From: Oscillospiraceae bacterium
GTDB lineage: Bacteria; Bacillota; Clostridia; Oscillospirales; CAG-272
Direction of reading: 5' to 3'
Length of the DNA stretch: 34,631 bases
Assembly (NCBI GenBank): GCA_015064545.1
Contig: SVSA01000015.1
Span: 1-34,631, forward strand
A program made the translations under genes and the position numbers. This document shows positions 4,701-34,631 of the stretch, in pieces. The notes beneath the pieces were generated by a model. It saw nothing but the letters and a program-made list of their open reading frames with translations, had not been told where the DNA came from and searched no databases. The number at the start of each line of letters is the position of its first letter. Position 1 is the first letter of the stretch.

Positions 4701-6506
4701 TTAATTTGTTATAAACTGACCGTGCAGACCGGCATCCACACGCTCACCGTTTACGAAAGTAATGGAGGTCGAGACCGCCGCACGGGTCCAAACGGCTACG
4801 CCATAATCGCCGGCGGGAGCAGATCCTGTCGCCACGATCAGGTAATAGCCGTTGCCGAGTCCCTCAAACTCGACATCGCACATGGTGTTATCCTTGAAGT
4901 CTACCACGGAATCGGTGGCGAGAACCTCGCCCTTCAGGGTTGTTTCATAGTCGGTATTCCAACGGTACACGTCGAATTTGACGGTACCCACGTTGTTGTC
5001 ATAGCTGGACAGATAGAAGGAACCGCCGATCAGGTTGCCCTTGGCGTTGACCAGCACGGCTACCTCCTTGGCCTGCTCCTGCAACAGATTCCGATGCTTT
5101 GCCACATCCTGACCGCCGCTGCAGGTATCCACACGGCCGCCCTTTGCTAAAAGGAAGTACTCGTCAAGCGGTTGATTGTTGTCATCGGGCGTACTGCTAT
5201 TATTTTTGTGAGCAAGGAACACGTCCAGATCGTCCATGTTGAAGGTTTCGCCGGTATCGGTGACACCAATCAGCTTGTTGTGCGTGGGGATCTTCTCGTT
5301 GTCGTACGTACCGAAGCCGTAGAAATACTGCTTACGGATGGTGTGGCTGGCATCCTCCCAAACCTCATGGGATACCATCGAGCAGTCGTAGAAGGCCATG
5401 CCGCAGGGGAAATCGTGGTTGTTGAGGGCATCAAAGACTGCGCCGATCGACGAGCTGTCGTAGGTGTTGAAGTGGCAACGGTAGAAGGAAATGCTATCCA
5501 CAAATTTGAAGTGGGCGGCGATGGAGTTTTTACTCTGTGCCGTATCGAAGCGGCAATCGGTCAGAACCGACAGCCAGGTGTCATTGTTGGTGCCGTAATC
5601 GCCGTCGAAGAGGATGGCGGTGGTGTTGTCGTAGAGGCAGAAGACACCGATGGATTCAAAGCGGTTATAAATATTGTAGTTTCCGGTAGGAGCTGTACCC
5701 GCCATCACCTTGATACCAATATCGGTAAAGCCCATAGCCATAATATTATGGAAATAACCGCCGGTGAAGGAATGGAGATACAGACAGGTCTTGGCCTTGT
5801 TGTTACCGTTCAGATAGATGCCGGAAACCTCGCAGTCGGAGATACGGCCGCGGACATGAATCATCGCTTCCATCTCGGTCGTTGCCACGATGCTCGTGGA
5901 GGCAGGGGTACTGAAGGCAAAGCCGCCGCCGGTGCCAACCAGCTTGATACCGCCCTTGGAGGAAACGGTCTGGCCGGCATCGCCGTTACCCATGTTCAGG
6001 GTAGCGGAGATATGATAGGTGCCGCCCGGCAAAGCAACGGTGCCGCCGCCATTGGGGAGCGTATCGATGGCCGCCTGAATGGCCGCGGTGTCATCGGCAG
6101 AGCCGTCGCCCTTGGCACCGAACCATTTGACATTCACGTAGTTTTCCTCGTAGTCGCGAACAAAGCGTCCGCTGGCGCGGTTACCCTTGATAACCGTGGC
6201 ACCGTTTTCCTCAATTCGCGAGGTAATGTCATAGTAGAAGGTTCCACCGCCGCCGTCGCCCGAACGGTGATAGCCCTTCAGAATGACGATGGCCTTGGGT
6301 TCCTTCGGCTCAAGCTCCAGCAGATCGGCCATGGTAGAGACCACATAGCTGCCGGCACCGGAGACGGTTACCTGCTCGACCTGCTCGGTCTCGGTCTCAG
6401 TCTCGGATTCGGTGCTAGCCGATCCACTGCCGCCGTCGGAGCAGCCGGCCAAAAGAAGCGTGGTCAACAGCCCGGCACTGAGAAATGTCAGGATCATTTT
6501 TTTCAT
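4701..6506 (-). CDS. Lipoprotein: pectate lyase superfamily beta-helix plus C-terminal WxxxYETT module
   Basis: Lipobox LLLAGC; VKWFGAKGDGSADDTAAIQAAIDTLPNGGGTVALPGGTYHIS; C-terminal KFDVYRWNTDYETTLKGEVLA...AGDYGVAVWT. Confidence 0.85.
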   Translation of the reverse strand: MKKMILTFLSAGLLTTLLLAGCSDGGSGSASTESETETETEQVEQVTVSGAGSYVVSTMADLLELEPKEPKAIVILKGYHRSGDGGGGTFYYDITSRIEENGATVIKGNRASGRFVRDYEENYVNVKWFGAKGDGSADDTAAIQAAIDTLPNGGGTVALPGGTYHISATLNMGNGDAGQTVSSKGGIKLVGTGGGFAFSTPASTSIVATTEMEAMIHVRGRISDCEVSGIYLNGNNKAKTCLYLHSFTGGYFHNIMAMGFTDIGIKVMAGTAPTGNYNIYNRFESIGVFCLYDNTTAILFDGDYGTNNDTWLSVLTDCRFDTAQSKNSIAAHFKFVDSISFYRCHFNTYDSSSIGAVFDALNNHDFPCGMAFYDCSMVSHEVWEDASHTIRKQYFYGFGTYDNEKIPTHNKLIGVTDTGETFNMDDLDVFLAHKNNSSTPDDNNQPLDEYFLLAKGGRVDTCSGGQDVAKHRNLLQEQAKEVAVLVNAKGNLIGGSFYLSSYDNNVGTVKFDVYRWNTDYETTLKGEVLATDSVVDFKDNTMCDVEFEGLGNGYYLIVATGSAPAGDYGVAVWTRAAVSTSITFVNGERVDAGLHGQFITN

Positions 6507-31951: not shown

Positions 31952-32054
31952 TCTTTATATTCCTCTCAATTTGTATTCTCTCTAATATAATGCATTGAAA
32001 ATCATCAATATTTATGTTATAATACTGTCAAAGAATTCGAGGTGGAATTATAAA

Positions 32055-32948
32055 ATGGCAGATACAACCGTTCATCAACACTATGTTTGGCGATATTATT
32101 TAAGGCAATGGGCAACCAACGAACAGATTATATGTTTGCGAGATGGAAATAAAATATTCCCTGTCAACTTGATGAAGATAGCACAAGAAAAATTGTTTTA
32201 TCAATTTTGCGAATCATCCGAAACCGATTTTTTAATCGCTCGTCATATGGCGGACGATTGCTCCATTAAGCTTATAGAGGTTTATGAAAGTATCAACGCA
32301 TTTTTGCGTAGCGCAAGAGAAAACGGAGATGACGCATTATATCAAGATATACTTGAGTTTTGTAAGGACTTTGATGAAAAATTCTACAATTGCCCCGTTG
32401 AAAAAGCATTAAAATTACCATTAGAGAAACTATATGCAAAAGATTTTTCTTTTTTGGATAATCAGGATACCAAAATCCCGTTTTGCAATGCAATAGCAGA
32501 ACAATATTGTCGAACAAACATGATGAAAACAGGATTTATTCGTAGTATAAAAGAATCAAATATCGAAGGGGCTAATCCACACAATGTATGGTTCTTAATT
32601 CGTCATAGTTTGGCGTGCAAAATAGGGATGGCTCTTGCCTTTAAGGAATATCGTTTTTGCTTATTAGAAAGCTCGGATGTTCCGCTTATTACAGGAGATC
32701 AGCCAATTATAAATGTTTATGCCGACTATAGAGAACCTAAAGGAATTGCAGAACAGTGTGATTTATATTATCCAATAACTCCACAATTGGCTTTGTTCAT
32801 CACCGATAAGGATATTGTTGAAAACAAGGGCATGATTTTTCTATCACGAGAGCAAGCAATGAAATTAAACGATCTCATAGTTGCCGCATCTCACAGCCAA
32901 GTCTTTGCAGCAAACAATGATGACCTCTTAAAATATAAAACAACATAA
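32055..32948 (+). CDS. DUF4238-like protein
   Basis: Start MADTTVHQHYVWRYYLRQWATNEQI; LITGDQPIINVYAD...DLYYPITPQLALFIT pattern. Confidence 0.7.
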   Translation: MADTTVHQHYVWRYYLRQWATNEQIICLRDGNKIFPVNLMKIAQEKLFYQFCESSETDFLIARHMADDCSIKLIEVYESINAFLRSARENGDDALYQDILEFCKDFDEKFYNCPVEKALKLPLEKLYAKDFSFLDNQDTKIPFCNAIAEQYCRTNMMKTGFIRSIKESNIEGANPHNVWFLIRHSLACKIGMALAFKEYRFCLLESSDVPLITGDQPIINVYADYREPKGIAEQCDLYYPITPQLALFITDKDIVENKGMIFLSREQAMKLNDLIVAASHSQVFAANNDDLLKYKTT

Positions 32949-32985: not shown

Positions 32986-33062
32986 ATATCTAACAAGATA
33001 AATAAAAGAAATAACTGATTTACACCAATTTTGCCTTTTTTCTGCCATCTCATTTTCACCCG

Positions 33063-33091
33063 TTGACTTGAGTATATGGGTATGGTATAAT
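33063..33091 (+). promoter_or_regulatory. Near-consensus extended -10 promoter
   Basis: TTGACT - 17 nt ending TGG - TATAAT. Confidence 0.8.
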
Positions 33092-33095
33092 AAAT

Positions 33096-33317
33096 GTGGA
33101 ACGGGAGATCGCTCCTACCACTTGTGGCGGCAACCGGTATTTTTTCACAGACTCGCTCTGTATAGTTTCCTGCGTGTTATCACGAATAATTTCAGACCGC
33201 CCGCGCCTTATAATTCGAGGGTAAGTTGCGCCGCCCTCTTCCGGCTTGCGTTCAGCAAGAAAAATTTATCAGACTGTAAAAAACAGAACTATGGCTTCGC
33301 TTCCCCTGGGGAAGCAT
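33096..33317 (+). ncRNA. Structured RNA candidate A (about 220 nt), raiA-size class; identity unassigned
   Basis: Strong promoter immediately upstream, no plausible ORF, helices gtgg(33096)/ccac(33118), gggag/ctcct, ggcggcaac(33126-33134)/gttgcgccgcc(33225-33235), acaga/tctgt, cttgc/gcaag, and hairpin gcttcccctggggaagc. Confidence 0.5.
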
Positions 33318-33341
33318 AAGAAAAAAGCCCCCAAACCCCCA

Positions 33342-33370
33342 TTGACAAAAACACTCCTTTTTGGTATAAT
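33342..33370 (+). promoter_or_regulatory. Perfect consensus sigma70 promoter
   Basis: TTGACA - 17 nt ending TGG - TATAAT. Confidence 0.9.
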
Positions 33371-33375
33371 AAAGG

Positions 33376-33870
33376 TGCAGAGGGCTAGAACCCCTGGATT
33401 GATTTTTGTGCGCCGTCCAATAGGACACATTTTCGCGGCTATGCCGTGTAGCACATCTGGTTAGGATTGTATTTATGTGTTGTGTTAGGATACCGTGGGC
33501 TTTTTGCTCGCAATGCACACGTTGTTATTTTTGTATGCGGTTATGATGCAACTATCATAACCATGTTTTGAGAATGGATCAATTTACGGGGTAAGTGTTT
33601 CTTCTCCCCTGCGAAGAAAGTTTATATCTTGCCATTGAGCAGGAACAGTTTATCAGAGCCGTATGGCAAGCTATTTCCGGGCAACCGTTGCAAATAGCTA
33701 TTTTCAAGGATTCAGGCGCATTCACGCGCAAATTGTGTTGAGGGCAGTTTTTACGGGATAACTATGCCCGTAAAAGTATCAGGGTAATTTTCATAATTAC
33801 CACAATGAATTTCATAGCGACATCGCCGCAAAAGTGTGAAAGTACAGGAAAAAGATTTCTGTGCTTTTTT
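33376..33870 (+). ncRNA. Large structured RNA candidate B (about 495 nt) with its own promoter and terminator
   Basis: Promoter 33342-33370, terminator 33839-33870, and at least eight helices in between, including a three-way junction and an H-type pseudoknot; no plausible ORF. Confidence 0.65.
33839..33870 (+). terminator. Intrinsic terminator of RNA candidate B
   Basis: aagtacag gaaaaagattt ctgtgctt + TTTT. Confidence 0.75.
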
Positions 33871-33942: not shown

Positions 33943-34062
33943 ATGAAAATTACCCTTTTTGTATTTTTCATATATTCTTGCACATTGAACAAACATATCA
34001 ACCATCGCCTCCGTCGCGCATCCGTTAAACTCACACAGAAAAGCGTAGGGCTTAGCTGCTAA
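33943..34062 (+). CDS. Small ORF, 39 aa, with very strong SD
   Basis: gaaaggaggtggtgcttATG; MKITLFVFFIYSCTLNKHINHRLRRASVKLTQKSVGLSC*. Confidence 0.35.
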   Translation: MKITLFVFFIYSCTLNKHINHRLRRASVKLTQKSVGLSC

Positions 34063-34099: not shown

Positions 34100-34426
34100 T
34101 TGCAACGGTTAAGAGAAAGTAATCCCAAAATAACACAGGCATCTCTTATACGAGATGGATATTTTCAAAGAACAAGAATCAATCGTATATTCAGAAACAG
34201 TAATGACAAGGGCGGACCGTTCCCTATAACCGTAAAGGATATCGTCACTCTCGCAATCGCTTATAAGCTAAACGAGGAGCAGACAAGAGAACTTTTATTC
34301 AGCGCATTCCCAGATTTCAGATTTTATGAGATGTTCGTAAAAAATCAAATGAGTCTGGCAGATGCAAACGAAATCTTAGACGAGCAAGCTCTTGACTTGC
34401 TTGGTACGTCAATCTTAGATGATTGA
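34100..34426 (+). CDS. HTH-like small protein; true N-terminus uncertain
   Basis: Frame open from 34049 but no ATG/GTG; TTG at 34100 lacks an SD; RESNPKITQASLIRDGYFQRTRINRIF...KDIVTLAIAYKLNEEQTRELLFSAFPDF. Confidence 0.5.
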   Translation: MQRLRESNPKITQASLIRDGYFQRTRINRIFRNSNDKGGPFPITVKDIVTLAIAYKLNEEQTRELLFSAFPDFRFYEMFVKNQMSLADANEILDEQALDLLGTSILDD

Positions 34427-34556
34427 AAAAATGATAAAGTTTCCTCGCGCCGCTTCCCTTGGGGAAGCAGGAAACGCTTTGACATCAGGTATAATGGTGT
34501 CAGGTTAAAGTTGCGCAACCAAAACCAATTTTTTATTTACGAAAGGAGAAAAAAGT

Positions 34557-34631
34557 ATGCTAAACATCAGAGATCTTAAAATCGATCCCGCCTCGCTCGG
34601 TGAGAAAAAGCTCCTTGTGGAGATCATTCCC
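34557..34631 (+). CDS. Partial CDS running off the right edge, unknown
   Basis: gaaaggag SD; MLNIRDLKIDPASLGEKKLLVEIIP... Confidence 0.6.
   Translation, partial: MLNIRDLKIDPASLGEKKLLVEIIP

Follow-up and report, generated by a model that had tools for sequence, protein, structure and literature searches.

A conserved structured RNA just inside an integrative element in Oscillospiraceae, a candidate family absent from Rfam

The window analysed here, a 34,631-bp stretch of an Oscillospiraceae bacterium, is the whole of contig SVSA01000015.1 (assembly GCA_015064545.1) of an incomplete genome, and it ends before the rep gene of an integrative element. Within this element we found a structured RNA of about 170 bases, named RNA B, whose predicted promoter lies some 40 bp in from the left end and points inward. 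By comparison of three genomes, RNA B is a real, narrowly distributed structured RNA of a mobile element and a candidate family absent from Rfam. The promoters, RNAs, terminator and ORFs given below for the element in the window are on the + strand.

The first-pass annotation had proposed a structured RNA candidate with a near-perfect promoter and no good ORF at 33063-33317. The promoter (33063-33091) reads TTGACT-17-TATAAT with an extended -10 element (TG) and agrees with the consensus at 11 of 12 positions; its hexamers and spacing are identical in G259 and G762, the two other genomes that carry B. Protein coding by B was rejected, since the 83-amino-acid ORF that crosses it begins within the promoter and its frame is disrupted in G259 by a 1-nt deletion. 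The proposal stood as to the candidate RNA and its promoter, while its 3' boundary had to be drawn back to 33264; the position of B and A at the end of an integrative mobile element had escaped it. Identity between the window and G762 is 45% at the left end of the element, 74% in the B promoter, 71% in hairpin 1 and 82% in the B core (97% for the core in G259), then 42% in the spacer that separates B from the following leader A, 68% in the promoter of A and 72-79% over the rest of A. Because the core is 82% identical to G762 and the two flanks only about 42-45%, the unit is taken as 33093-33264, an island of identity that a covariance model matches in G762 with E 1.4e-21. The hairpin at 33299-33315, formerly counted as the 3' part of B, lies outside this unit, is missing from the G762 locus and has a second copy at 34452. 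Judged by conservation above the flanks and by the helices kept in all three copies, the structured RNA domain at 33093-33264 is real and conserved.

Every helix and hairpin drawn by the first-pass annotation was found in place. Hairpin 1 (33096-33121), at the predicted transcript start, is the most variable part of B: the window differs from G259 at 8 of 29 positions there, against one aligned difference in the final 108 bases of the core. Two pairs of this hairpin are altered on both sides across the three copies, one of them appearing as U-A, U-G and C-G. A long-range helix with a 2-nt bulge joins GGCGGCAAC (33126-33134), invariant in the three copies, to GTTGCGCCGCC (33225-33235), from which G762 lacks one G, a change taken up as a bulge; the helix is intact in 3/3 copies and every alignment cell that holds letters pairs. 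Inside the multibranch loop, the hairpin ACAGA/TCTGT (33147-33161) has changes in G259 in its loop only and is shortened in G762. The hairpin CGTG-TTAT-CACG (33173-33184) keeps an invariant stem with a different loop in G762. The hairpin GCCTT-ATAATTCG-AGGGT (33205-33222) has an invariant loop, and reciprocal exchanges between copies (U-G to U-A and U-A to U-G) preserve its pairing. By the 3' edge of the unit, the hairpin CTTGC/GCAAG (33245-33259) has an invariant stem and a loop that is shorter in G762. At varying positions of B, the non-Watson-Crick pairs are mostly G-U when read on the + strand, which is the transcribed strand.

The folding energy of the 33096-33318 transcript was no better than that of shuffled sequences (z -0.34), and the long-range helix had a probability of 3% when all 223 nt were folded, of 12% in G259 and of 25% in the trimmed stretch 33096-33240. 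For these two reasons the structure could not be claimed from folding alone. That B is more than chance is indicated by comparison, because a block with the intact helix recurs in G259 and in the diverged G762 while its flanks have decayed. For the helices of the first-pass annotation, 94.7% of cells in the three copies hold standard pairs, and pairing falls to about 33-55% when the partners are slid by 1-3 columns, a control that flatters the structure since the latter was derived from the same sequences. Covariation is suggestive only: with three sequences it was not significant, shuffles reaching the observed value in 105/500 and 271/500 cases. A fold from RNAalifold with partly different pairs is about equally consistent with the three copies.

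The first-pass annotation had suggested the raiA-motif class for B and had named 6S and other models as a check. The raiA-motif RNA (ModT, RF03072) is a structured RNA of about 200 nt known in Bacillota (PMC11706538). B is structured and similar in size, but it turned up in a single kind of mobile element and cmscan gave no RF03072 match, at the gathering score or up to E 10. The 6S RNAs (RF00013 and relatives) and all other families were rejected likewise, no Rfam 15 model matching 33093-33264 up to E 10. The covariance model, built from the window and G259 copies, found the third copy, G762, among 395 family genomes. In all, blastn was run on 295, 394 and 69 genomes and the model on 395, 30 and 394 genomes (the sets overlap), and B was found in 3 genomes among the several hundred searched. 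Weak blastn matches across the order looked unrelated when read, and weak model matches in G775, G083 and G090, with 19 bits or less, were not accepted. Phage and plasmid collections gave no blastn match. Viral contigs searched by Rep and by four patterns of B yielded no relative, the matches being judged chance by BLAST, model search or reading, and a single pattern written for the leader A motif gave no match there.

The edge of the inserted element was placed at 33020 because similarity between the window and G259 stops there: to the right of about 33020, as far as the contig end, the two share about 90-92% identity, insertions in leader A aside, while the sequences further left are unrelated. 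The first stretch (33020-33058) is a probable integrase arm or att region; when inverted it resembles, by eye, what follows the integrase at the right-hand end of the element in G259 and G279. In both of these genomes a tyrosine integrase adjoins ychF, a gene that was named by its sequence. Att sites in the form of clear direct repeats were not found. Beyond leader A, the window holds a 108-amino-acid ORF (34100-34426), a possible regulator with no family match and 92% DNA identity in G259, and the start of a conserved gene for a 102-amino-acid protein (34557-34631), which the contig end truncates. The G259 element goes on to encode the 102-amino-acid protein, Rep, an FtsK-like ATPase and the tyrosine integrase, and ends beside ychF. 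Its Rep matches Pfam Viral_Rep (8e-10) and, over residues 7-297, PDB 7lar, an ATP-dependent helicase Rep (8e-17), and just before rep there is a hairpin origin whose loop carries TAGTATTAC, with GTAGCA repeats coming after it. Two marks of an integrated pCRESS plasmid, a CRESS-virus-related Rep with HUH nuclease and helicase domains and a hairpin origin with a nonanucleotide, are found in G259. Kazlauskas et al. (2019; PMC6668415) describe integrated pCRESS plasmids as site-specifically integrated elements with an HUH-helicase Rep, and the G259 element has their layout. The host element is probably a small integrated pCRESS plasmid replicating by a circovirus-like Rep; the window element is identified by homology, because its copy is cut before Rep.

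Several further observations were made on these elements and their neighbours. Perfect hairpins with TAGTATTAC and GTAGCA repeats, similar to circovirus and geminivirus origins, occur in L068 (~5276), L069 (~371), L070 (~50) and L093 (~5442), and AAGTATTAC replaces TAGTATTAC at the same origin position in L035 and L072. A palindrome, GGTTAAAGTTGCGCAACC, is located at 34503-34526, just after the promoter preceding the 102-amino-acid protein gene; GCGC-centred sequences like it occupy the matching position in L072, L076 and L093, and it may be a regulator site. The left end of the element is adjoined by a DUF4238 protein gene (31995-32948), with a different gene there in G259. In L073 and L074 (~6240-6270) relatives of the element directly abut a CRISPR array at the end where its final repeat is cut short, and the spacers differ between the genomes.

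RNA B is followed by an unconserved spacer (33265-33341) holding the palindrome GCTTCCCCTGGGGAAGC (33299-33315). In both the window and G259 the palindrome GCTTCCCYNRGGGAAGC occurs twice, at 33299-33315 and 34452-34468, each time shortly before a promoter, and the pair is possibly an operator. The leader A promoter (33342-33370) reads TTGACA-17-TATAAT with an extended -10, matches the consensus at 12/12 positions and is kept in G259 and G762. Leader A contains a 72-nt three-way junction (33403-33474; model R3, E 7e-17), for which eight aligned units show compensatory changes in some pairs. Its form is GTGC, two hairpins and GCAC, then a GTTA-rich tail with a TTGTA end. It was also seen in L013, L093, L014, L035 and L086, including loci of different gene content, and as tandem repeats in G259. 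Three genomes, G142, G188 and G673, have the junction but not B. In two further, apparently phage-like loci the junction starts a promoter-driven transcript and is followed by a hairpin and T tract, and its neighbourhood in L014 includes a serine-recombinase-like ORF and a nuclease-like ORF (judged from sequence). Leader A ends in an intrinsic terminator (33838-33868; 13-bp stem and T tract), whose stem is kept in G762 despite 39% sequence identity to the window. Downstream is a 39-amino-acid ORF (33943-34062) with a maskable ribosome-binding site, which can pair downstream while the upstream strand GGAGGCGG competes (by eye). The layout of this small ORF (27-39 codons) recurs in L013, L035, L072-L074, L076 and L093 with differing peptide sequences. 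The G762 locus runs in the order tRNA-Ser, B promoter, B, A promoter, A, terminator, small ORF, ORF and 102-amino-acid gene, and the succession from the B promoter to the small ORF is common to all three copies.

In none of the three copies does the interval from B to A hold a predicted + strand terminator; the terminator common to all closes leader A, ahead of the small ORF. B therefore probably reads through into A, and the two are probably one leader rather than two separate RNAs. We tentatively prefer, with a little less than even confidence, the reading that B is the 5' domain of a single long untranslated leader that controls the element genes in cis. Transcription would start at the B promoter, run inward through B into A and meet in turn the terminator, the small ORF with its sequestered ribosome-binding site and the replication and transfer genes. 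B would fold or bind a factor while emerging from RNA polymerase and would change the share of transcription that passes the terminator, as antitermination and attenuation leaders do.

Structured RNAs at the start of long transcripts with terminators downstream are found in the HK022 put sites, EAR and LoaP-dependent leaders. The position of B, at the very start of a predicted long transcript with a terminator downstream, likewise fits a processive antiterminator RNA; we know of no sequence or structure match between B and these leaders, and no NusG paralog or other factor was identified for B. Gram-positive plasmids have attenuated replication leaders, which are untranslated and carry an intrinsic terminator ahead of the replication genes. 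The B-A leader shares this arrangement but is much longer and has two tandem promoters, and no antisense RNA was found.

The strong promoter of its own and the sharp end of conservation at 33264, where an unconserved spacer begins that leads to another promoter, would also suit a stand-alone trans-acting small RNA, separately transcribed, processed near 33264-33330 and directed at other transcripts or at proteins, for example in copy-number or exclusion control. We regard this as somewhat unlikely, since no copy has a terminator after B and B always lies directly upstream of A; the two co-occur in 3/3 B loci, in the same order. Nor does B contain a stretch of at least 8 bases complementary to leader A, and an antisense role against A was rejected on this ground.

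B might instead act as DNA, as a single-strand origin or a similar structured site: folded on the displaced strand, it would prime second-strand synthesis in rolling-circle replication. The G259 element, with its CRESS Rep and textbook hairpin origin, should need a lagging-strand start, and such origins consist of several stem-loops in a structured non-coding block, sso1 of ICEBs1 being an example (PMC4595007). Unlike sso1, B bears a near-consensus promoter for double-stranded DNA that aims into the structure at constant spacing in all copies. Related rolling-circle elements are without B: leaders of elements with a 71%-identical Rep lack it, so that B is dispensable for this class of element. 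TAGCGT, which we take to be the ssoA box, is also absent from B. An origin function for B thus appears quite improbable. Least probable is that B and A arose by duplication and B is a decaying, functionless extra copy of the leader: two similar stretches do occur in shared order (23 nt around the -10 and start, and TTCAGCAAGAAAAATTTATCAGA versus TTGAGCAGGAACAGTTTATCAGA), but the three-way-junction model finds no match in B, which was rejected as a further copy of that motif, and the B core is conserved at least as well as leader A (82% versus 72-79% to G762).

The cis-leader reading can be widened to a proposal that we put forward only as an unlikely one, namely that integrative CRESS plasmids have in B and A a new RNA-based control system, in which two different structured RNA modules, each with its own promoter, set terminator read-through, and that the three-way junction is an interchangeable antitermination part common to unrelated phage-like elements. 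If such a control system were true, terminator read-through would decide between silence of the element and its excision and replication. Bacterial plasmids with CRESS Reps have been proposed as the origin of the replication genes of CRESS-DNA viruses (PMC6668415), and a limited literature search found no account of how integrated pCRESS plasmids keep their genes off. RNA B adds a candidate to the known RNA families, and since the promoter, boundaries and terminator of this conserved RNA leader are defined, the silencing of pCRESS genes becomes open to reporter testing.
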